DNA of 64,000 nt. Source: Allacma fusca (Eukaryota > Arthropoda > Collembola > Symphypleona > Sminthuridae). Position numbers and translations under genes: made by a program. How positions within the stretch are numbered: the first letter of the stretch is position 1; every line of letters begins with the position of its first letter. The notes under the pieces are model-generated. The model did no database searches and had not been told where the DNA came from. It worked only from the letters and a program-made list of their open reading frames with translations. Positions 10,792 through 58,115 of the stretch are shown in pieces. The stretch lies in contig OX359248.1 of the NCBI GenBank assembly GCA_947179485.1, positions 26,049,378-26,113,377 of the forward strand, given 5' to 3'.

Positions 10792-13700
10792 ATGATTGAG
10801 ATACCCGACCGGGACAAATTTCCGTCGTTTGCTCAAAGGCACATGGCGAGTGGAGAGAAGGGAGTGGGTTCAGCGTATCAGTCCTATAAAGCGGGGCGAT
10901 CTACAAACACCGCAACTATTCTTCTGCTAGGGATGACAGGTGCAGGGAAGTCTCATACGATCAACAATCTCTTCACCAAAGAAATAACTCCGGTCGGAGA
11001 TGGAGTCTCTTGTACCAAAGACATTGTGGAGTTTACCATTGAAATGCCATCGGAGAATGCTGGAATATCTAATGCGAAGGTATGTATGAGTACATGTATT
11101 TCTCTGTAAATGTAAATTATTTTGAAATGAAAAATTATTTGTTTAGAATTTCCAGTCCGACTGGACATCTTCTATTGTTTACGGCAGCTGCAAAAATGTT
11201 TAGGAAGCAAATTATTGTTTACGTAGAATATTTATTGTCTTTTTATACCTTTTTGAAACTTGATTACGAGAACTTTAAAATACTTACTGTTTCAAGGAAT
11301 GCAAGTGGTTTGTTTTGTAGCTGCAGTGGTGGGAGGGTAATGCATTTTTTAAAATGCTGGATAATGGGGTATTGTAATAATTTTAGTGTATACAATTTCG
11401 TTTGAGCAGTCTCTTGAACTGTGAACCAACTTTTAAGGTAAATACCAGTGGTGGGCACCTCGCCTATATATAGGCCCTATAAATAGGCGATAGTATAGGC
11501 GGGCTGGAAAATGCTGAAAAAATGTAGGCGAGGTTGACAAAAAAGGGTAGGCGTTTAATAAGTACTAGGCTAGGGGATAGGAAGGCAAATATAACACCAA
11601 TTATATAGGCAAGGAAAAGGAAGGTATCAAGAGTTTCCGATCATGTCAGAATAAGATGTTGAAGGGTACCTATCGGTGATTTTACAAGGCAATGAGTAAG
11701 AGCAAATTCATGCATCAATGCATATATGCTGACTAAACGCATGATTGGACCGCATTAAACGTTTGATTGGAATCTGGTTTTGGGGTTGTTGGTAAATACA
11801 GAATAAGGAATAATAGAAGTATTTAGTTCTACAGTTGATAAATAAACAACTTAAGTAGCACAAATCCAATGCACTTCAAAACTAGGCAAGGTGTTACCTA
11901 GGCGATCGCAGGAAAATAGGGAAGGAAAAGGTAGGCGATCTATCAGCCTAGTTTTGGGCTATAGGGAATGGGCATCCCTATAGCCCAGAAGGTAGGGACG
12001 TTTTTCCAATATTTTATAGGCAAGGCTGAAGGATAGGCGATCCACTTGCCCACCACTGGTAAATACTATTGAAAACAGGTGGTTTGTATCAAAATGCCCC
12101 ACTTGTTCACAAAAGGGTGTGACAAAATTCTGAGGTTTGTAGCAAATTGGGTTTCAGATTTGATAAAGTTTGTTTGTCTGACGTGAGTCAGTATTTGTAG
12201 GTTATATTTATGGTCACAGAGGTTACAAACGGGAAGCAAATATGATAATTTTTGAGTATACCAAACCAAACAATTCAACCGTATTTCCAAAGTATGTGTA
12301 CATATATATTTGATGACTGACTGAGTTAGTGAAAACATTGAATGGTACTACCAGTTGCTACACCAATAGCTACACAACCATGAATATCTGTAATATCTTA
12401 TGTCTATCCGTATTCGGTGCGGAATGGAAGTCATGCTCATATTTCTTTTCACAGATTAAAGTTATTGATACCCCTGGGTTCGGAGATACTGAGGATGGGC
12501 TTGAATTCGACGCCCGAGTCCTTGCCAACATTGATCGAATATTTGAACTCAGGCAGTACAAGCCCAGTTTCATCATCTTAGCGGTCAACATCAACGATAA
12601 ACGTCTTGACGGGAAATTTGCTCCATTCGTACAGCTGCTACAGTCCATGAAGTTGCAACTGATGAAAAACGTTCTGGACAAGGACCATCCAAACCTAGTT
12701 ATCGTACTCACTCACCTTTGTGGGGCAGTTCCAAAATTACAAAGAGATCCAAATCCGAAGAAATTACTGGTTCAAAAAATTGTTCACGAAAACTTGGGGA
12801 TTCCTAATGTTCCTGTGGAGGTTGCTGAAAATTGTGTCGATGATTACGAGCTGCCGAAGACTTCTGCTGGCGATTACTTTATACTACCTAACAAGGAATA
12901 TTTCCCACGTAATTTGTACCAAAGTATGGTACGCATTGCTCAAACAGTAGATCCAGTTGGTCATGAAATCGTGAATGAAGCATACCCTAAATTACAGAAA
13001 AGGAACTTCCCCATTTCTAAACAAGAGCATCCCATTGTTGAGGTCCCCGCTTCAGATGTTATTGCAAGTGATATTATGCGGATGAAAATTTCCACAAATA
13101 CAGAGCTGGGGGACAATCTTTCCGTTGGATATAGTCAGCTTTCCAAAGCCGAGCGAGATTTATGCCGGATGGAAGCAACGGAATTTAGCTACAAGTTGTC
13201 TATTTTGGGCTACCGAAACAGATCCGACTTACCTAAAACCAAGAAAGACGTTATAGCATTTTTTCGGGAAATTTCCCCTGATAAGGGCATGGAGATACTT
13301 CTAAGAAAATCCTTTGGGTTGGAAGCACCAAACTTTACTGTGGATCTGTACATTGGACGAGCTTTTGATTTAACGAAGGATAGAACCACTTCTTTTGTAG
13401 TTCTTTCTCCTGGTACTCATACCTTGGCCAACACTGGCTGCTACATGCCGCAATATATTATTTCCAGCTGTTGTCCCGAAGTCAAGTTCACTTATAATAT
13501 AGCTCATACAGCTCAAGAGATGATGCAACAACGGATGAAGGAACTCAAAATCCAAATGTCTTGCAGCAAGATTGGATTCAACTTTTCGAATCGTGAGGGC
13601 TACAGTATTTTCTCCCAGGGCTCAAGTAACACGCTTACTGCAGTGTACGAGAAAAGGATTCTTAAGCTGGAAATCAAACATAATGCTCCAATTAGCCAAG

Positions 13701-15157
13701 AGTTGACTTCCGCTGTGGAGGGCTTACCCACGGTGTATGATAGGCACAATCAAGCAAACGTTCAGCAATGGAAAACATTTTTCAATACTTACGGAACTCA
13801 CTACATCAACACGTCCTATCTCGGGGGTAGCGTTGTATTTACCATGAGTAATGTCGATGGATCCAAAGGTCAATCTAGCTTCCAATCAACTCAAGGCGGC
13901 ATCTCAGGTTTCCTGAAGGGGATTTTCGGTGGCGTGGAGTACAGCGACTCCTCGTCAAGTAGCTCCTCGTCCTCTTTCAGTAGAAAAAATATGGAAATTC
14001 TGGTCCGTGGTGGGAATAGTGCGAAAGCTTCACAACTTGCTTTGAGTAACAACCAAAAAGAATTCACTGATCGTTTAACAGCTTGGGAAGAAACTATCTG
14101 GGAGAATCCAATGGTGACAGACTCCAGCGTTGCTCTGGCTGAAGTCGCTGATGTTGTTAACCAATTCAGATCGGGAGTGGTTAATGCTATGAAAGTTGCA
14201 ACTGAAGACCTTTATAATGCTAGGCTCGAGTATGAGGCAAAACTTGCTGAACCCACCAAGCAAGGAGACAGTGACGCAAATAAAGGTGGAGATTCATCTT
14301 GCCTCACCCCAGAGACGCTCATATCCACCCCAAGAGGGAATGCTCCAGTCAAGTCCATTCAAGCTGGAGATATTGTTATTGATCAGTATGGACGACCCGT
14401 AAGAGTCATAGGTGCTAATAAGGTATACTCCTTGGGAAACACGACTCTATATGGATTCAAAGACTCCACCATTGCATCCAAACCCTTCTTCACCGGTGGA
14501 CACACTTTTCTAACGCCAACCGGGAATATACTGGCGCAGAATAAGTATTTCCTGGAAAGCAATCACCCTCAAATGAAAACAGAATTTGTTGTGGTTGAAA
14601 TGCCAACAGAGAATATTGAAATAGCAGCGTTCGAGAATGGTGAGATGAAAAGGAGAAGTGTTCCAGGGTTGACTTCAGAAACTGCTGACGAATGCCAAGA
14701 ACTATATTTCCTGGTAGTGGAAGGAGACGGAACTTACGTGGCAAATGGATTTATCTGTTATCATGAGCTACCAAGATTTGAAGCCTGGCCTAAAACTTTC
14801 GCTGCAATATTTGAAACTGTTAACTATGAGAAATTTTCCCAATCAGGCAATCAAGAATTTTCTCTGGAACAGTTCAAAGATTTGGTAAAAGTTACGGAGA
14901 AAATACGGAACCAGTGGGAGATTCTTGTGAATAACGTTAGACCTGCAGAAGATGAAACGAATGGAAATGTGAGCGAGGATTTCCAAAGAATTTTAAGTCA
15001 TCTTGGGCTTATTCTGAATGATCAATGGAAATCAAGTTTTGGTATGATTCTGTACAGTCGTTGTGGAGAGTTCTTACACCGACATTTAGATGTTCAGGGA
15101 ATGCCCTTTTCACAGTTTGTCAATGCGGCTCGAGAGATTTTGCAAGGAAAAGATTGA
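10792..15157 (+). CDS. GTPase-MACPF-Hint fusion protein (996 aa, two coding exons)
   Basis: Exons 10792-11079 and 12455-15157 join in phase 0 (donor GTATGT, acceptor TTTTCACAG). Domains: a P-loop GTPase, with Walker A GMTGAGKS at residues 47-54 and the G3 motif DTPGFGD at 101-107; in the G4 place is T-H-L-C (182-185) rather than NKxD. A helical linker follows (about 270-390). The MACPF/perforin-like domain (about 390-700) begins with GRAFD (397-401), carries the signature YGTHY at 542-546 followed by a Gly-Gly turn, and has a Ser-rich run near 595-604. The Hint domain (712-866) starts at Cys712, has a T-x-x-H motif at 776-779 and ends in NGFICYHE. A helical C-terminal domain fills 867-996. 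There is no signal peptide. I infer a cytosolic, nucleotide-controlled pore-former, perhaps defensive; the Hint may cleave off or modify its neighbour. The domain calls are firm, the function is not known. ATG 10792 is the first ATG after the leader intron. Confidence 0.88.
11446..12058. mobile_element. hAT MITE (613 bp) inside the intron of GTPase-MACPF gene 1
   Basis: Inverted ends CAGTGGTGGGCACCTCGCC and ...CCACTTGCCCACCACTG are flanked by a perfect 8-bp duplication GTAAATAC (11438-11445, 12059-12066). The interior has many TAGGCGA/TAGGCAAGG words, a subterminal repeat pattern typical of hAT elements. It is absent from the equivalent intron of gene 2 (18056-18676), so it arrived after the duplication or was lost there. 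Confidence 0.9.
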
Positions 15158-17767: not shown

Positions 17768-20506
17768 ATGATTGAGATACCCAACCGGGACAAATTTCCG
17801 TCTTTTGCTCAAAATCATGCGGCGAGTGGAGAGAAGGGTGTGAGTGCAGCGTGTGATTCCTATAAATTGGGGCGATCTACAAATACAGCAAGTATTCTTC
17901 TGCTGGGGATGACGGGTGCGGGGAAGTCTCATACGATCAACAATCTTTTCTCAAAAGTGATAACTCCAGTCGGTGATGGAGTCTCTTGTACCAAAGATAT
18001 TATGGAGTTTACCATTCAAATGCCATCACAGAACCTTGGAATATCTAATGCGAAGGTATGCATACAAACATTTCTCCTCGATTGTACACTGATGTAAAAA
18101 TATTTGTTTCGTATATGCAGTCATACGAGTCAAATTATACTATTTAATGCAGTTACAAAAATGCTTTGTAGTGACAATAGTGTTTTTTCTGAACTGCTGG
18201 GTGGATAATTGCTGCAATAATTGTTTAAATCATTAAATATGGACTGCGCTTACCTACATTAATTACGAACTTAAATAAAATAAAATCTTTAAACCAAACC
18301 GGAATTAAACTTCACCAGAAAAAAATCAGACGCTAAATGCAATCGTAATTTTAGCACACCTACTTGTATGGGTTAGGGGAGAAAAATTAATATGAAATAG
18401 ATTTACTCAGTCGAAACATCAAAGCTACTTGACAATATGCTATGAGTGTCATTTACCGGTACAAATGTCTATTTCCCAGATAAATACTTAAGAAACTGTT
18501 GGCAGTTTCTTTATATTTGTTTGGATCGTTGTACTTATTATTTATTATATGTACATATGTATATCTGCATATATGTACGTGATGTAACCAGGGACCATGT
18601 TGATATATTTACTTATAAAATCAATTTTAAAGAGGCCGGATACGGAATAATTAATACTATTTATTTCTTTTCCCAGATTGAAGTTATAGATACCCCTGGG
18701 TTCGGAGATACTGAGGATGGGCTTGAATTCGACGCCCGAGTCCTTGCCAACATTGATCGATTATTTGAAAGCAAGCAGTACAAGCCTAATTTCATCATCT
18801 TAACCGTCAACATCAACGATAAACGTCTTGACGGCAAAGTTGCTCCGTTTGTACAGCTCTTACTATCCTTGAAGATGTTGCTGGGAAAAAATGTTCTGGA
18901 CACTACAAACTCAAACCTAGTTGTCGTACTCACTCACCTTTGTGGAGCAATTCCAAAACTACAAAGAGATCCAAGTCCGAAGAAACTACTGGTTCAAAAA
19001 ATTGTTCACGAAAACTTGGGGATTCCTAATGTTCCTGTGGAAGTTGTTGAAAATTGTTTTGAAGATTACGAACTAGAGAAGAAAGGCGATTACTTTATAC
19101 TACCTAACAAGGAATATTTCCCACGTAATTTGTATCAAAGTATGGTAGGCATTGCTCAAACAGTAGATCCAGTTGGTCATGGAATAGTGAATGAAGCGTA
19201 CCCTAAATTGCAGTCAGGAAACTTCCCCATTTTGGAACAAGAGTATCCTATAGTTAAGGTGACAGCTTCAGATATTATTATAAACGATATTATGCGGATG
19301 AAAATTTCTACACATACAGAGCTGGGGGACAATCTTTCCCAAGGTTGGAATCAGCTTTCCCAAACCGAAAGAGATTTATGCCGGATGAAACCAACGGAAT
19401 TCAGCCACAAGTTGTCAGTTTTGGGTTACAAAACCAGATCAGACTTGCCTAAAACCAAGAAAGACATTATTGTATTTTTTCGGGAACTATCTCCTGATAA
19501 GGGCATGGAGGCACTTTTAAGGAAATCCCTCGGGTTGGAAGCACCAAACTTTACTGTGGATCTGTACATTGGACGAGCTTATGAATTAACGAAGGATAGA
19601 GTCGAATCTTCCGTAGTGCTTTCTCCGGGTACCCTGGTCCTGTCCAATGTAGGCTGCTACATGCCGGAATATGTTGTTGCAAGCTGTTGTCCCGAAGTCA
19701 AGTTCACTTGCAATATCGCTCATACAGCTCAAGAGATGAGGCAACAACGACTAAAGGAACTCAAGATCCAGGTTTCTTCCGGCACAAGTGGGCTTATCTT
19801 TGGTCATCGTGATGGCTACAATATTTTCTCCCAAGGCTCAAATAACACGTTTACTGCAGTGTACGAGAAAAGGATACTTAAGCTGGAAATCAGACATAAT
19901 GCTCCAATTAGCCAAGAGTTGACTTCCGTCCTCCGGAACCTACCCACGGTATGTGATAAGGATACTGATACTAACGTTCAGCATTGGAAATCCTTTTTCA
20001 ACACATTCGGGACTCACTACATCAACACCTCGTATCTCGGGGGTAGAATTGTCTTTACAATGAGAAACGTTGATGCTTCCAGTGGCCAATCGATTTGGCG
20101 GTCAAGTCAATGTGGGTTTTCAGAATTTCTGAAAGCCATTTTCGGTACTGGATACAACAACTCATCCTTAATTAGTAGACACAATTTAGAGATTCAGGTA
20201 CACGGAGGGAGCAGTGCACAAGCTTCACATATTGCTTGTAGTAGCAGTCAAAAAGAATTTGTGGACCGGTTAACGTCTTGGGAAGAAACTATCTGGGAGA
20301 ATCCAATGGTGACAGATTCCAGCGTTGCCCTGACTGAAATTGCAGATGCTGCTAACCGCTTCAGATCGCATGTGGTTAATGCTATGAAGAATGCAGCTGT
20401 ACATCGTTACAATGGAACACTGTTCTCATTGTATGATTTACTTAATGTAAGATTTATTCCATGTATTCCCTTCCTTTACGGTAATATTGTGGGTGGTGAT
20501 AACTGA
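17768..20506 (+). CDS. GTPase-MACPF protein, paralogue of gene 1 without Hint (705 aa)
   Basis: Exons 17768-18055 and 18677-20506 have the same positions and phase as gene 1. The Walker A GMTGAGKS (47-54), DTPGFGD (101-107) and T-H-L-C in the G4 place are retained. The MACPF signature is FGTHY at 540-544 followed by the Gly-Gly turn. Most residues match gene 1 up to the helix AMKNA (gene 1: AMKVA). After that the two diverge and this protein ends with about 30 unrelated residues. The Ser-rich run of gene 1 is replaced by a shorter N-N-S-S segment. A possible donor (AAT|GTAAGA at about 20446) just before the end could make the last 20 residues intronic; no in-frame continuation was found. AATAAA at 20681-20686 fits an mRNA ending soon after the stop. 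Presumably it has the same GTPase/pore activity but no Hint-dependent step. Confidence 0.8.
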
Positions 20507-20744
20507 ATAACTTTGAACATGATAATTTGAACTACTAATTTTAGTAGTTCACAGAGACAAAGTATTTTTTTTTGTAATTCTGGTTCATCTTACGACAGAG
20601 TTGTCTCATTGCCTAATTGCTACACCACTATCCGAGGAACTACTCCGCCAATTTAAATGGGAAAAATTCTTCTGGATCTCAATAAATAACGAGTCATAGC
20701 CATTGGAATTACTGTTTAAGAGGAATGTCAAGAGTTTATAAATT

Positions 20745-20864
20745 ATCCCTTACTGTATACCCACCCCAGTGTATATCCTAGTCCAGAATAATTTCTTACT
20801 GGAAGACAACAACCAAAGTCACACTATGCAAAGGAATCAGAGTGTGGTGAAAATATGCTTCTAA
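20745..20864 (+). pseudogene. Decayed Hint-domain fragment downstream of gene 2
   Basis: In one frame this 120-bp stretch reads I-L-V-Q-N-N-F-L-L-E-D-N-N-Q, matching gene 1 Hint residues I-L-A-Q-N-K-Y-F-L-E-S-N-H-P at about 788-801, and then M-Q-...-V-V-K-I against M-K-...-V-V-E-M. Stop codons bound it on both sides (TAA just upstream at 20739, TAA at 20862). No flanking Hint sequence could be aligned with confidence. It indicates that gene 2 once had the same Hint module and lost it. Confidence 0.6.
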
Positions 20865-24035: not shown

Positions 24036-26767
24036 ATGTCTAGACGTGAAAGGGACGCGAAGGAAAGGAAGCCAAGATATTTTGATGCGATAACCCACGG
24101 GGCCAAGTTTGGATCGCCAAGGGTACCCATCGCTGTAAGAGTGATTTTAAATTTTAAGTATATTTGTAATGTGTATAGTTAAAGTAAGCATATTGTATTG
24201 TTTGTTGAACACTGGAATTAAAATGTATTAACAGTACAGAGAGTGTATGTCTCATCCTTTAGGATCAAGGGGACAACCTGAATTTTTACCAAAGTTTCAG
24301 GAACGAGCCGGTTCCTCCAGATCCGGTCATAATTTCGGCAGTGAAGTTTACTCCAGCAGTCCCGCTCTCCTGGGTTGCAAGTAAAACGGCTACTATGGAG
24401 GCTGGACCTTCTACAAATTCCGGATCTCTTATCAGAAGAGCCGAGTTGAGTAGGACTACCAACTCTATCCCGACCCTGCCTTTCGCACAAATATTTTCGG
24501 AATCCCCGAAAAATATGGAAGATATGGGGAAAGCAAAGCCACCGGAACAGACAGGCCGAGATATCTCACCAAATCTCGTTGCCAAGGGTCCTGGATGGAA
24601 GAGTAGAAATACTCCTGAACAAGTAAATCACAAATTGCGAAGAAGCTCTGCATGGAAGAGTCGAGATGGCAAGCGACCTGTTGATGAAGTCCGACATACC
24701 CCTGAGATATCAATTGCCAAGGGTTCTGTAGCGAAAGGGTATACCCCTGAAAAATCAGTCGCCAAGGGTTCTGTTGAGAAAAGTCATACCTCTGAAAAAT
24801 CAGTTACCAAGGGATTTGGAGAGAAAAGTTACATCCCTGAAAAATCTGTCATCAAGGGATCTGTAGAGAAAGGTCACACCCCTGGAAAATCAACCATCAA
24901 GGGATCTGCAGAGAAAGGTCACATCCCAGAAAATTCAGCTACGAAGGGACCTGTAGAAAAAAGCCCAAATATCGCTGAAAAAGCTTTCCAGGTACCTGAA
25001 CCGAAAGCTCGAGATATTATTATCAAACCAGTTGACGAGGGTTATGTTGATAAAAGTCATACCTCTGAAAAATCCGTTACCAAGGGATCTGTAGAGAAAA
25101 GGTACATCCCTGAAAATTCAGTCATCAAGGGATCTGCAGAGAGCGAATTTCGAAGAAGCTCTGCATGGAAGAGTCGCGATGGCAAGCGACCTGTTGACGA
25201 AGTCCGACATACCCCTGAGATATCAATTGCCAAGGGTTCTGTAGCAAAAGGGTATACCCCTGAAAAATCAGTAGCCAAGGGTTCTGTTGAGAAAAGTCAT
25301 ACTTCTGAAAAATCAGTCATCAAGGAATCTGTAGAGAAAAGTTACACCCCTGGAAATACAGTCATCAAGGGATCTGTAGAGAAAGGTCACACCCCTGAAA
25401 ATTCAGTTACCAAGGAACCCGTAGAAAAAAGTCCAAATAACGCTGATAAAGCTTTCCAGGTACCTGAACCGAAAGGTCGAGATATCGCTATAAAATCAGT
25501 TGGCGAGGTAACTGCTGACGCTACAGAGCAGGACCAGGATAGGATTAAATCAACTGGTTCCGAGGTAGAATGGTTCGTAAAGCAGGAGATGCTGAAGTCG
25601 GATAAGGACCCTTGTATGGAAATTCTATCTCCAACCAAAGTTTTTGTTGGTTGTTATAAATTTGAAAACCTGTCAGTATCAGTTAATGACAACAGTAAGG
25701 GGTTAAATCAGTTGGCAAAAAAAGAAGTGAAAACAGAACAAGTACAAACAGTCGACGGTACTTCAGATGTAAAAGAGGAAGATTTTTCGGTATCTAGACC
25801 TTTGCTATTCGTTGACTCCGCGGTACTTCTGATGGATGTAAAAATCGTTAGTGTCAGCAATTTAAATGAAGCAGTGGTAAGTGTGCCAAATTCAGCGGGT
25901 CGGTTTTTATTGTGACTTAAAATTATAAATAAATACATTTCAAGCTGAGTGATATACTCCGTTATTTTTACAGATTCGATGCGTCGATCCTGAATTGCAT
26001 GATGAATTGGAAAATCTGGAGAGTAAGATACATGATGATTTGGGGAATGAGAAGGGACAGTTACTACCCAGTGCCACGGGGTTGTGCCGACTCCAAGTTT
26101 ACAATTACTATGTTGTGAAGTTACCTGGATCAACTAAATGCTTCAGGTATGTTCGCGTAGGTATGGGATAATAAATATAGTTTACATAAATAAATGGTTA
26201 GGTATCGCTTTAACCGTCCTATCATTGGATCCTATAATTGGAGTACTATCATTTATTTCAGAGTTCAAGTGCTTCATTTGTTTGGGCATAGGAAAAACAG
26301 TAAGGCTCTTGTTTTTCTCATTGATTACGGCATAGAAGAGATTGTCTTACAATCTTATATTTTCTTCATGAAACCCGAGTGGAAAAGTCTCCCACAGCTT
26401 TCTTGCCACGGTCAAATACAAGGTAATTCTGGAAATCACCGTTTTACAATCGAGATGGACAAACAATCTACTCACTCAAAATATTTTTTGAGACGCGGAT
26501 TGAAGTATATTTTTGGGAAACAATTACGATTATTATACTATAGGTTGGATTGGGGGTCCAGTTGATGGGCAGCTGGATGAGTCCTTCAAAATCGGAGAGG
26601 AATATGAAACTAAAACCGTATGTGTCCAACCGTTGGCAACAGAATTTTTAATGCAAAAATCGTCTCAAGTAGTTGAAGCTGTTGGAGTACCGTTCGAAGT
26701 AAGAGCTGTTCGCTTGCGAATTTTCGATGAAATTGAGGCCATTAAACATTTGGGGATCAGTTGGTAA
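24036..26767 (+). CDS. Tudor-domain protein with Lys/Ser-rich repeat array (756 aa, 5 exons)
   Basis: Exons: 24036-24134, 24263-25876, 25974-26146, 26262-26422, 26544-26767, all with GT-AG borders and matching phases. The N-terminus is basic (MSRRERDAKERK). The big second exon encodes a disordered region with about eleven 15-residue repeats of the type KGSVEKSHTSEKSVT. The C-terminal third is a Tudor domain: CFRVQVLHLFGH, then ALVFLIDYGIEEIV (strand with the D-Y-G turn), then F-M-K-P-E-W-K-S-L-P and C-H-G-Q-I. Tudor domains bind methylated arginine or lysine; extended forms scaffold Piwi/piRNA granules. The usual Asn after D-Y-G is Ile here, so ligand binding may be altered. The neighbour at 29252 is a dsRNA-binding protein, which suggests, but does not prove, a small-RNA role. 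Confidence 0.8.
24638..25450 (+). repeat. In-frame duplication and 45-bp tandem repeats inside the Tudor gene
   Basis: A segment beginning CGAAGAAGCTCTGCATGG at 24638 recurs at 25151, about 513 bp (171 codons) later, nearly unchanged and in frame. Within each half are several 45-bp units encoding KGSVEKxxxPEKSVx. The duplication therefore copied a whole block of repeats together with the S-A-W-K-S-R-D-G-K-R linker. Confidence 0.75.
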
Positions 26768-41010: not shown

Positions 41011-43741
41011 ATGACTCTTTTTGAGAGTGTGCTGTTTTACTTAACGGTAACCCTAACACTATTATGGGTTTACCAAATATGGGATCGCAAAAATCGGCGC
41101 CTCCCTCCAGGTGAGGTTTTACAAAATTTTATTTATCCACACAATAGTCTAATTCACCTTGAATATGTTGAGTAGGGCCATTTCAACTGCCCCTTATTGG
41201 AAGCATCTTACAAATTGTGCTAGCTGACAATAAATATCCATTCAAGGCTGTCTATAAATTATCCAAGAAATACGGGGACGTAATGTCGTTAAAATTTGGA
41301 TCTGTGAATGCTGGTAAGAGCCGCCTTTTGAAGGATACATTGTTTACAAAGTATTTTAATACAAAATGGCGCCACAGTTTTTTTTTTCACTTTTTTCAGT
41401 TGTAATAAATGGATATGACACAATAAAGAACATTCTAAACCAGGAAGACTTTCTAAACCGGTTTGATACAGACTGGTTTTTGCACAGAAGCTTTGGGAAA
41501 CGAATTGGTAATAACAGACATTTAATTGTATAGTGTTTGTAGACTGCGTGGCAGCGCGTTATAAATATTTGCAAAAAGTATTATACAATTCAATCCCAAT
41601 AAGTAGCGTTTTTTAAAAAAATTTTAAGGTATACTAGCTGCCTCCACTGAAGTTTGGAGACCAACTAGGAGATTCACTATGCGAAACCTGCGAGATTTTG
41701 GCTTTGGGAAGAAACATTTTCAGCAAAAGTTTCTGGATACAGAAATGCACGATTTATCCCGATTACTCGATCAAGCTATTGAACAAAACAATGGAGTCAT
41801 AGAGCCTCATACACTCTTTCGCATCCCCAGCGTCAATATAGCGTGGGCATCTGCAGCTGGATCTAGGTTCGAACACACTGACCCTAAAATTTTAAAGCTC
41901 GTGTCCTTGATGTCTGAGTTCACAAGTACCGCCTCGATATTGGATGGGGTGCCAGCTGCCTTTCCCTTTTTGCTTCGTTGGTTTCCAAGTTTCTTTTCTA
42001 TCCAGAGGTTGAGCGATATCGATGATGAAATGCACCAGTTTTTAAGAGTTCGTAGTACAAATTATTGTAGCAATTATTCTGTCGTTGTAATTATTTATGG
42101 ACTAGTATTCATGTGTACCTGATGTGAATGCGTGTACAGAGCATATTTGATCCAATGTATGTTTACCTACTTTGGTTACTTATGTTGACATGGTCGTTTT
42201 TCTCATTTCAGACACTACTTAGCGACATTCGAGGACGAGAAACTTACAAAACAGACCCCGACAGTTTCATAGAAGCTTTTCTACAACACATGGAGTCGGA
42301 TAAGATTATCAGTCCTGAGGATCGAGAAGTATTCAGTGGTATGTATTAAATTAAATTTGATCTTTGGGGAAATCTTGTTTTTGAAATACTATATAGAAAA
42401 TGTGAGTTACTGGTATCACGGTCGTCGTATTTCAGTTGTTGAGATAAATTGTATGGAATGGAAATTGAAATTGAATTGCTTACATTGTTACACGCGAATA
42501 TCTGAATTTGATGGTTTTTATTTAAGAGGAGTCGCTTATTTCTACCTTGTACGACCTATTCCTTGCTGGAAGTGACACAACGTCTGCTTCAATGACATTT
42601 GCTCTTATGTGGCTTACAATGTATCCTGAAGTTCAAGAAAAATTACGAAATGAGCTGGAGACAGTAATTGGAAATGGACGCTTGGCTACACTTGAGGACA
42701 AGCTAAGGTAAGGAATGATAGTACAAAAAATATATTTTGGAAAACAAGTTTAACAAGTATGGGAAAATTTAGATCCAATTCCAATCTCATTAATTTGTCC
42801 TCCAGCTTACCTTATGCAAGAGCAGTCATCTTGGAACTACATCGTCACAACCATCTTGTGCCATTCATGCCCAGGAAAGTTTACAAAGACACCGCATACG
42901 ACAAATACATCATACCAGCTGTAAATTATTTATACTACTGATTGGACATCTTTAGTTGTTACATTGTTGGTAAAGAGGCAAAATAGGCTGGATTAAATTT
43001 CGGCTGAAAGTAAAATTATCCAAATGCAGTCTCCCTAAATTCAAAATGAACCAGAAATTAATAACTAACTAATTAGAGCACGTGCAATTTCTCCAAAAAG
43101 TAAATAGAAATATTTGCTTCAAATCTTTTAAAATACATTTATATCTCGTTTTGATTTTTTTAAAACTACATGTATAGTTCATTTTGGTAATTTTGTGCAT
43201 TAAGGAGAAACTCATTTGATAGGCTGTTTTCCGTTGCGACGAAATACGTATATTTTGCCTCCATACTGATGACAAATATAAAATTGTGGTAGACGAAGAT
43301 ATTTGCTTCTTACAGGATACCTTAGTGGTAGTCAACCTGTACAGCGCCCTCATGGACGATGACTTTTGGGGAGATCCGCAAAATTTCAGGCCATCAAGGT
43401 TCTTGGATGACAAAAACAACATAATTAATGCTGAAAGAATCATTAACTTCGCAGCAGGTCAGATAGTAACGATAAGATGTTTACTTGTTCAGTGAATATC
43501 CGCATCCTATTATATTTTAAATTAAAGCGGTATAAAATATTTGATGGCTGCTTTTGTAGGAAAAAGAAACTGCATCGGTGAGATTATTGCCGAATCAACT
43601 ATTTTCGCGTTTGTGACTCAACTAGTGCAGAAATATGATTTTCTTCCCGCTAAGGATGGACAAGTATTTAACTCTGACAAAATACACGGAGGTGTACTGT
43701 CGGCTCACAAGTACCAAATCAAGGTGCGGAGGCGAGTTTAA
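41011..43741 (+). CDS. Cytochrome P450 monooxygenase, microsomal, CYP2-clan-like (503 aa, 9 exons)
   Basis: Exons: 41011-41110, 41176-41313, 41400-41507, 41629-42047, 42212-42338, 42527-42707, 42806-42920, 43316-43457, 43560-43741; phases agree throughout. The N-terminal hydrophobic anchor (about residues 4-22) is followed by R-R-L-P-P-G-P, the proline-rich hinge of ER P450s. The helix C motif is W-R-P-T-R-R-F, helix I is A-G-S-D-T-T, the ExxR motif is E-L-H-R, the PxRF-type motif is F-R-P-S-R-F, and the haem loop F-A-A-G-K-R-N-C-I-G-E carries the Cys ligand. It should insert one oxygen atom into a lipophilic substrate using electrons from P450 reductase. L-R-D-F-G-F-G after helix C is typical of CYP2-clan enzymes. 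All catalytic motifs are intact. Oddities: intron 4 has a weak donor (GTTCGT), and intron 7 holds a degenerate repeat. Confidence 0.93.
42964..43276. repeat. Degenerate inverted-repeat element in P450 intron 7
   Basis: It begins TTGTTGGTAAAGAGGCAAAA, similar to the end of the element at 2009 (TCGTCGGTGAAGAGGCAAAA), and closes near 43250-43276 with the inverse TATTTTGCCTCC. Internal GTTCATTTTGG words also match that element. It is much shorter and diverged; lineage by similarity only. Confidence 0.45.
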
Positions 43742-56214: not shown

Positions 56215-56385
56215 AAAAAACAAACAAAAAAGTGCAAATTTAGGGGGAACCCCTGCCCAATTTTTTCAAAATTTGTAAACACTTAGAGAACTAGTGTGGA
56301 AGACGCCGCGACCGGAAAATCTCTCACTGCCAAACCCCATAGTCCTCATCAATATAACCCTGACAGACAAGAGTAGATATTAACC

Positions 56386-57360
56386 ATGACTTCATTCTTA
56401 CCTAATGAAATATTCTCCAACATTCCAACCTACGATGGACAATCATCATGCAAAGCTTGGCTCAAATCCCTGAACTACCGATGTACCCACTTCAAACTAA
56501 CTGACAAATGGAAATTTGAAAACATGGATTCTATATTACAAGGATCCGCTTTACATTGGTGGACCTTTTCTAATGATGTATTCCTAGAAAATCTGAATAT
56601 TGCTAACTCCCAACTACGTTTCAAGGAATTTGAAGAACAAATCCAGAATGCATTTTCAGAAAAAGACGATAAAGCCATTGCTACAGCGGAAAATTCAACC
56701 ACTATATTTCATGCTGAAACTGAACACGCTCGTGATTATATCTACAAGAAATTAAGTATATTCAAACGTATGGACCCCACAATGACTGACTCTTGTAAAC
56801 TTGATTATCTATACCAAGGACTACCTCAGGAACTAACCTGGAATATCCAACTAAAACTTGGCGCTGACGGTACAATTGAGCAATTTCAAAAACAATTAGA
56901 TTTCTATACCTCTAAATTACAATCCTACAACGCTCAACTTCTACAACAACAACCTCCAACAGACATGTCCAAACTTTACGAACTCCCAATAAAAAACACC
57001 AGCCAACCACTACCTGAAACTCTGAATACGCCTATAACGACAGACCAGATACCAACTAAACTACCCCAAACAACTACAACTACATCCCACATTTGCCCCT
57101 TCTGTAATACAAACACCCACCAACTACGCCACTGCCATACTTTCAAACGATGGCTAAATGAGACTAACATCTTTACCAGCAACCCAAATAATCACTATCA
57201 ACAACGAAACGACCCTACAACTCAACAACAATTCAGACAACTTGACCAACAATTTCCTAATCACAACCCACATCAACTCAATCATCTCAATACCACCTAC
57301 GATTTAAACCGTGACCAATACCCATCAAGTCAAGATCAAAACTGGAAACCGGGAAACTAG
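56386..57360 (+). CDS. Retrotransposon Gag-like protein with CCHC zinc knuckle (324 aa)
   Basis: The first ATG after the leader. The N-terminal two thirds is a helical Gag capsid-type region: an opening segment with Y-D-G-Q-S-S-C-K-A-W-L, then L-Q-G-S-A-L-H-W-W, then F-K-E-F-E-E-Q-I and Y-L-Y-Q-G-L-P, the pattern of the retrotransposon gag family of Ty3-type elements. A zinc knuckle C-x2-C-x4-H-x4-C is at residues 237-250 (C-P-F-C...H...C). The C-terminus is Asn/Gln/His-rich. It would form the particle shell around element RNA. It stops at TAG 57358-57360, eight bases before the next frame begins. Confidence 0.82.
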   Translation: MTSFLPNEIFSNIPTYDGQSSCKAWLKSLNYRCTHFKLTDKWKFENMDSILQGSALHWWTFSNDVFLENLNIANSQLRFKEFEEQIQNAFSEKDDKAIATAENSTTIFHAETEHARDYIYKKLSIFKRMDPTMTDSCKLDYLYQGLPQELTWNIQLKLGADGTIEQFQKQLDFYTSKLQSYNAQLLQQQPPTDMSKLYELPIKNTSQPLPETLNTPITTDQIPTKLPQTTTTTSHICPFCNTNTHQLRHCHTFKRWLNETNIFTSNPNNHYQQRNDPTTQQQFRQLDQQFPNHNPHQLNHLNTTYDLNRDQYPSSQDQNWKPGN

Positions 57361-57368
57361 ATCGCCTG

Positions 57369-58115
57369 ATGAAGAAGGGAGATCATCAGGCTACACAACA
57401 AGTCATCACGGAACCCTCCCACCGTATCAACAATAATTATAGAACCAACCCAAAGCTCATCCCATTAATGTCAATCGTATTTGATACTCCTCCCACTCCC
57501 CCACCAAAACGGAAATATCCACCTTCGTTATCCCTTATTCCCAAAGCGTTCCCAAAATCTCCATATAACCCAGATTATCCCCGTTACTTCCCGCGACAAG
57601 GATCTAATCCACGACATCACCGATTTCATCCCACTACCAAGCAAACCATCTCTAACTCCCAATTCCCAAACATCCAACAACCCCTACCTGTTCTCGAAGA
57701 TCTACATCGACACATTATACAAATTCACACACTACCCAACACATCATTCAAGAATGTAAAATCTCGCAACCGAATAAGTCATCACTCCTTGTTTCCCAAT
57801 TATTCATACAGTCTTCCCCAAACAAATAATTTCAGAGAACTGAACAAACAACAGAGATGGAATAACCAACATAAATACGATCCTCAGAATGACTCCAATA
57901 AAAGACATGCCAACTTCCCAAGAAAGGACTTACAGCAACGAAGACACTTTAGCAACCACTGTACAGAAAACAAGAATTACCCTACCTCCAATTTACCAAA
58001 TGCCTCAAACACAACATTACCACCAACTTGTTCATTCTGTAATACTGGCAATCACAAACTACGTGACTGCTATGCCTTCAGACAATGGATAACAATGCAA
58101 TCAAGAACACTATGA
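57369..58115 (+). CDS. Second frame of the LTR element: Pro/Asn-rich protein ending in a zinc knuckle (248 aa)
   Basis: This frame differs from gag and follows it by eight bases. It is low-complexity (Pro, Asn, Arg, His) until residues 221-234, a second C-x2-C-x4-H-x4-C knuckle (C-S-F-C-N-T-G-N-H). After the knuckle both proteins continue C-x3-F-(K/R)-x-W, so the ends of the two frames look like duplicates of one module. It could be translated separately, by frameshift, or be a displaced gag tail. No enzymatic domain is visible. Confidence 0.55.
   Translation: MKKGDHQATQQVITEPSHRINNNYRTNPKLIPLMSIVFDTPPTPPPKRKYPPSLSLIPKAFPKSPYNPDYPRYFPRQGSNPRHHRFHPTTKQTISNSQFPNIQQPLPVLEDLHRHIIQIHTLPNTSFKNVKSRNRISHHSLFPNYSYSLPQTNNFRELNKQQRWNNQHKYDPQNDSNKRHANFPRKDLQQRRHFSNHCTENKNYPTSNLPNASNTTLPPTCSFCNTGNHKLRDCYAFRQWITMQSRTL

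Follow-up and report, generated by a model that had tools for sequence, protein, structure and literature searches.

A stretch of 64,000 nucleotides from the springtail Allacma fusca (contig OX359248.1, positions 26,049,378 to 26,113,377; here called the window, with positions counted from its first letter) carries a gene whose 996-residue protein joins a septin/AIG1-like GTPase, a MACPF domain, a Hint domain (residues 712-866) and a helical tail of 130 residues, in that order. The same order recurs in a fly and in another springtail, and we therefore regard GTPase-MACPF-Hint as a genuine protein type that has apparently not been described before. The intein-like Hint domain probably cuts or tags the protein that carries it.

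Gene structure and domain order

The protein is the product of two exons joined in phase 0 (window 10792-15157, forward strand), and the coordinates given for them in a preliminary description, made from the DNA letters alone, proved exact: exons 10792-11079 and 12455-15157 meet at a GT/AG intron. The features of this gene, and of a tandem copy of it in the window, are as follows.

10792..11079, forward strand: exon 1, from the start to residue 96, with the P-loop GMTGAGKS within it; supported by the full-length relative P0003
11080..12454, forward strand: intron 1, GT..AG, phase 0
12455..15157, forward strand: exon 2, with the rest of the GTPase (DTPGFGD), a middle region, MACPF, Hint, tail and stop
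13640..14128, forward strand: MACPF domain by Pfam, residues 492-654, E 4.3e-17
13790-13804, forward strand: MACPF signature YGTHY, residues 542-546
14300..14764, forward strand: Hint domain, residues 712-866, with Cys1 at Cys712 and TxxH at 776-779
14765..15154, forward strand: C-terminal helical tail, residues 867-996
17768..18055, forward strand: tandem copy, exon 1, GTPase with intact P-loop
18677..20506, forward strand: tandem copy, exon 2, GTPase and MACPF, with a stop before any Hint

The motifs that mark the domains each occur once in the protein: GMTGAGKS at residues 47-54, DTPGFGD at 101-107, YGTHY at 542-546 and, for the Hint domain, Cys712, TGGH at 776-779 and CYHE at 864-867. Their positions, the Pfam matches and an AlphaFold2 model bear out the arrangement first proposed, in which GTPase, MACPF, Hint and 130 further residues lie in one frame. 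No signal peptide-like start was seen in the protein by crude hydropathy. It is extremely improbable that the gene model is an artefact in which the GTPase exon and the MACPF-Hint exon belong to different messenger RNAs. A partial A. fusca database protein, P0002, which is 99.1% identical to the window protein (737/744), crosses the same exon junction before ending inside the Hint domain, and P0003 of the fly Bradysia coprophila (1008 residues, 54% identity) is collinear over 100% of the window protein; in addition, reading of the DNA places an intron at the corresponding position, before IDTPG, in three paralogues, the tandem copy, C1a and C1b.

Intron 1 contains (window 11438-12066) a 613-base-pair (bp) element at 11446-12058 that is bounded by 12-bp terminal inverted repeats, CAGTGGTGGGCA, and flanked by an 8-bp duplication, GTAAATAC; we take it to be a hAT-like non-autonomous transposon.

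The hidden Markov model search suggested in the preliminary description supports two of the three domains outright. The GTPase part matched the Pfam models AIG1, Septin and MMR_HSR1 with 32.3, 36.5 and 34.4 bits against cut-offs of 27, 26.2 and 21.9, and together with the intact P-loop this places it in the septin/AIG1 class. The MACPF part matched PF01823 with 63.4 bits against a cut-off of 21.5, and the protein has the superfamily's signature motif, Y/W-G-T-H-F/Y, in the form YGTHY, besides a conserved GG motif. The Hint_2 match at residues 712-753 (E 1.6e-5, 25.8 bits) falls below its cut-off of 28.4 bits. A profile of 11 relatives, compared with the sequences of the Protein Data Bank (PDB), gave 62 matches at E <= 0.01; among the best 60 of these 62, the GTPase part found septins, Toc34, GIMAP4 and GIMAP7, and the MACPF part found complement C6 (E 3.4e-14), C7, C8, C9 and perforin-1 (E 5.7e-10).

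The Hint domain and the tail

The AlphaFold2 model of residues 704-996 has a Hint fold (predicted local distance difference test score, pLDDT, 84.5), and two fold comparisons each listed 50 PDB entries, all of them inteins, BIL, Vint or Hedgehog Hint domains; the comparison spans residues 5-165 of the model, and the tail hardly weighs in it. The Hint fold first proposed at 712-866 is thus confirmed at the level of a predicted structure. Cys1 and TxxH are invariant in all six Hint rows of our alignment, in which identity to the window Hint falls as low as 24%, and fold and residues together put the modelled domain in the Hint superfamily.

The domain does not end as an intein does. The residues NGF..C.H had been read as its terminus, but this end is not of intein type: His866 stands at about the place of the terminal Asn of inteins, and at that place, set from the range ends of the fold comparison, all six rows read C-[YR]-H-E and lack the His-Asn pair. 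The two residues preceding Cys1 vary over the six rows (SS, TK, SN, SN, GS, SS). The pattern suggests N-terminal thioester chemistry without splicing. The tail (867-996) is modelled as helices, several of them moderately amphipathic, and is 37% identical to that of Bradysia, as against 56% for the Hint domain.

Relatives and origin

Three protein searches gave 12 relatives, P0002 to P0013. Because scoring in these searches was limited to the candidates with most words in common with the query (7997 in one, 8000 in another), the distribution reported here is a lower bound; the search with Hint and tail missed P0003, P0005 and P0007 although all three carry Hint, which shows how limited its reach was. 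MACPF is followed by Hint sequence in six of the 12: P0002 (cut inside Hint), P0003, P0004, P0005, P0007 and P0012. A GTPase precedes the MACPF completely in P0002, P0003 and P0005 and in part in P0004 and P0007, and the available piece of P0012 is without the GTPase part. The order therefore extends beyond Allacma, as the preliminary description had asked, to Bradysia coprophila and to the springtail Orchesella dallaii, whose P0005 is a diverged protein of the same arrangement.

No Hint was found in the other six (P0006, P0008, P0009, P0010, P0011 and P0013), among which several Orchesella models are possibly incomplete and P0013 represents part of the tandem copy (95.7% identical, 470/491). 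P0009, from the fungus Jimgerdemannia flammicorona, has GTPase and MACPF in the same order as the window protein, but has no Hint match and ends instead in a C-terminal hydrophobic stretch (Kyte-Doolittle value 2.24 at 829). Three Orchesella dallaii proteins with GTPase or GTPase-MACPF (P0008, P0010 and P0011) combine a signal-peptide-like start with a Cys-rich part that gives weak crystallin or syncollin matches below cut-off; because of that start their GTPase might be secreted.

In a tree of the GTPase-MACPF part (13 rows, root position not fixed) the Hint-bearing rows occur in each of the two main animal groups. The tree would be consistent with an old Hint that was lost several times, and repeated gain is also possible. 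The window protein is 54% identical to the fly protein versus 31-33% to its own paralogues on C1, and we considered transfer between springtail and fly; old paralogy with losses would fit the tree equally well. Our searches found no literature joining Collembola, perforin and horizontal gene transfer, and among the springtail papers that they listed none dealt with MACPF. A contig scan for bacterial origin yielded 32 pattern matches and a single relative, a Methylacidiphilaceae protein with a distant Hint. Scans of viral sequences yielded 38 pattern matches with A3 and 25 with A5 but no relative, such pattern scans being prone to miss diverged ones.

Paralogues in the same genome

The A. fusca genome has MACPF at four places and the related GTPase at eight. 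Of these eight, two lie in the window, five form an array on C1 (about 51.055-51.067 Mb) and the last is elsewhere on C1. The tandem copy shares 76% protein identity with the window gene (nonsynonymous divergence, dN, 0.137; synonymous divergence, dS, 0.402), and the shared body of the two copies is under constraint, with dN/dS about 0.34. A candidate Hint relic behind the tandem copy (20584-20854) was tried and rejected: its lax alignment scored 851 against a mean of 709 and a maximum of 792 in 200 shuffles, and under stricter scoring it was marginal, at 44 against 34.1 (standard deviation 4.4), with 36 of 1000 shuffles as high and two of 27 control segments higher. The relic is collinear with Hint coding DNA, and we do not claim it.

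Two genes of the array, C1a and C1b, also encode GTPase and MACPF with no Hint. They are 40% identical to each other (232/580 columns), with similarity fading at the end. One terminates in CAIE; the other terminates in CIIS, which is preceded by a basic stretch. Both endings have the CaaX form of the prenylation box and lie within about 30 residues of where Hint starts in the window gene. A CaaX-like end is thus present in two of the three Hint-less GTPase-MACPF paralogues, whereas 30 of 4334 open frames of at least 20 residues (0.7%), and four of 464 of at least 60, end so in a sample made up of the window and seven 10-kb stretches, C1a and C1b included. The P-loop Lys is kept in all four MACPF-bearing genes and is replaced by Ile in the three array genes that lack MACPF.

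Of the five GTPase genes that make up the array (L007 and L008), two have MACPF and a CaaX-like end, and the other three lack MACPF and have lost the P-loop Lys; the first of the MACPF-less genes ends, by eye, in a hydrophobic stretch. Beside the array, L008 5817-9998 holds a very long in-frame short repeat rich in Ser, Leu and Asn (LNSQTGEPRSLSGGASSQ), open on both strands.

Comparison with known systems

AIG1/GIMAP-like GTPases with a C-terminal Hint have been published as GmGIN1, as MEROPS C46 proteins of Glomeromycotina, in Acropora and Biomphalaria, and as CARD+AIG1+HINT proteins of amphioxus (PMC2362128, PMC8778642, PMC3723955, PMC7053062, PMC12373286). To judge from the available parts of these papers, the window protein resembles them in having an AIG1-class GTPase before a C-terminal Hint, and GmGIN1 and the snail proteins are likewise stated to be without a signal peptide. 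However, those parts describe no MACPF, which in the window protein lies between GTPase and Hint, and where the coral and Glomeromycotina Hint is named there it is PF01079, a model (Hog) not listed for any of our six Hint rows at E <= 5 with HMMER filters applying. The window protein therefore has the order of GIN1 and MEROPS C46 with a MACPF interposed, and its Hint is not of the PF01079 type. A 2013 survey, in the part available, reported no AIG1 loci in the ecdysozoan genomes of that time (PMC3723955), and the accessible part of PMC12373286 has MACPF in a reference title and Hint in amphioxus AIG1 proteins. The preliminary description knew of no family with this order, and none turned up in our literature searches, including the available text of PMC8986115 and PMC12373286, most subscription journals lying outside their coverage.

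Membership in the Hog family of Hedgehog was rejected, as the alignment is confined to motif A. Profile similarity to Hedgehog Hog has probability 73 there, and that to a bacterial BIL-like Hint has probability 96, also in motif A only. PF01079 finds one place in the A. fusca genome, on C5, which is 40% identical to Drosophila Hedgehog. The window protein differs from Hedgehog in having no signal peptide-like start; its tail was not matched to the sterol recognition region. From BIL2 of Tetrahymena BUBL1 (6y75), other BIL domains and inteins it differs in having no ubiquitin-like flanks, no His-Asn end and a tail of 130 residues. Pfam gave no match in the protein at E <= 1 for a ubiquitin-like domain beside Hint, as in BUBL proteins, or for a VWA domain before it, as in VWA-Vint proteins; the Vint structure 8r2c stands at rank 43 in the fold comparison.

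A possible mechanism and its alternatives

We tentatively favour a reading in which the protein is a soluble precursor, a septin/AIG1-class GTPase and MACPF followed by an autoprocessing Hint domain and its helical tail. In this reading the Hint would act on the C-terminus newly created on the GTPase-MACPF part and modify it for placement on a membrane or target. An N-S acyl shift at Cys712 would turn the C-terminus of GTPase-MACPF into a thioester. Because the Asn cyclisation of inteins is not available, an external nucleophile would resolve the thioester, whether the hydroxyl of a lipid, an amine or a lysine of another protein. Hedgehog offers a parallel, and so does Tetrahymena BIL2, which the seen part of PMC8616854 describes as conjugating a ubiquitin-like protein to ubl5 and a Ras GTPase. 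The modified protein would then be fixed to its membrane or target, and its assembly there, driven by GTP, would allow the MACPF to insert. The tail may select the nucleophile, by analogy with the sterol recognition region of Hedgehog, which binds cholesterol (available parts of PMC9163320 and PMC7242414). In the CaaX-ended, Hint-less paralogues the placing would be done by prenylation instead, which suggests that a membrane anchor is what matters at this C-terminal place.

Several findings weigh against this reading. The Hint domains of the window protein, P0003, P0004, P0005 and P0007 are all below Pfam cut-offs. No residue clearly corresponds to D303, the catalytic Asp of Hedgehog: the profile alignment to Hedgehog stops short of the D303 column, and counting leads to a nearest column with N, N, N, N, A, A. 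According to the available part of PMC9163320, the Hedgehog Hint links cholesterol and needs D303 to do so, yet D303A still cleaves with dithiothreitol; cleavage itself would thus be independent of this residue, and because it has no clear counterpart here the adduct need not be a sterol. The CaaX link is a post hoc observation on a small number of genes. The tandem copy, one of the three Hint-less GTPase-MACPF genes here, is without a CaaX end, as are the Hint-less Orchesella MACPF models P0006, P0008 and P0010, which are perhaps incomplete. On the tree the Hint label needs at least four changes against a shuffled mean of 4.6 and so does not cluster beyond the shuffles. P0008 and P0010 begin with a signal-peptide-like hydrophobic stretch, because of which part of the family may be secreted. 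As to the nucleotide-gated pore proposed in the preliminary description, the co-occurrence of P-loop Lys and MACPF in window and array genes gives it circumstantial support, but L022, the eighth and more distant member on C1, is a counter-example: an open frame there still carries a P-loop, GEVQSGKS, although the 3.4 kb seen contain no MACPF. P-loop loss is thus not strictly tied to MACPF loss.

The main rival, plain release by hydrolysis, was the preliminary idea: cleavage at Cys712 would remove an inhibitory C-terminal piece of 285 residues and free the GTPase-MACPF part to oligomerise. The invariant Cys1 and TxxH would serve such a switch as well, the variable residues before Cys1 leave no conserved acceptor site visible on the N side, and a tail less conserved than the Hint domain is as expected of a mask rather than a binding site. 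However, the three Hint-less paralogues with intact P-loops in the same genome would then be constitutively unmasked, and the CaaX-like ends of two of them speak for C-terminal placement; they favour modification over removal of an inhibitor, and we hold release to be plausible, though on the unlikely side. That the Hint domain is a folded module kept for binding, in a protein that stays whole, would suit the missing His-Asn end and the existence of a constrained tandem copy without it, but it seems distinctly unlikely given that all six rows retain the three residues of the N-terminal reaction (Cys1, Thr and His), at identities to the window Hint that fall as low as 24%. Some MACPF proteins act as a scaffold or signalling fold and make no pore. 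Nothing specific points that way here beyond the fact that a MACPF with a GTPase and no signal peptide is unlike secreted complement or perforin, and with YGTHY and GG kept and a profile that matches C6 to C9 and perforin-1 we consider such a role improbable.

In its fullest form, the placement reading would make the protein a self-arming perforin without a signal peptide, controlled by GTP, whose intein-like domain welds its C-terminus to a lipid or protein as an autocatalytic substitute for the CaaX prenylation of its paralogues; taken as a whole, this is rather unlikely.

Other features of the window

Elsewhere in the window lie a cytochrome P450 exon (41628-42122, Pfam E 4.7e-9) and an open frame of 550 residues with degenerate repeats rich in Lys, Ser and Glu (24263-25915, GYTPEKSVAKGSVEKSHTSEKSV) and a weak HC2 match below cut-off. 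At 56377-58115 two overlapping frames carry Gag-like Cys/His zinc-knuckle motifs, recognised by eye, and probably represent a retroelement remnant; the first of them has no Pfam match.

Implications

Pore-formers need to be kept off until they are on the right membrane, and a single chain that combines a nucleotide switch with an autoprocessing domain would solve this problem compactly. By analogy with the MACPF and GIMAP families, its role would most likely be defence against intracellular microbes or damaged compartments. The A. fusca genome offers natural comparisons between genes with Hint, with a CaaX-like end and with neither, and the protein joins two scattered themes: the GTPase-Hint proteins known from fungi, corals and molluscs, whose purpose is unclear, and a GTPase-MACPF protein of one fungus. 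If the proposed placement is right, this would be, to our knowledge, the first pore-former to owe its placement to Hint chemistry, and it would add to the Hedgehog-type proteins a new use of Hint-driven modification in animals.

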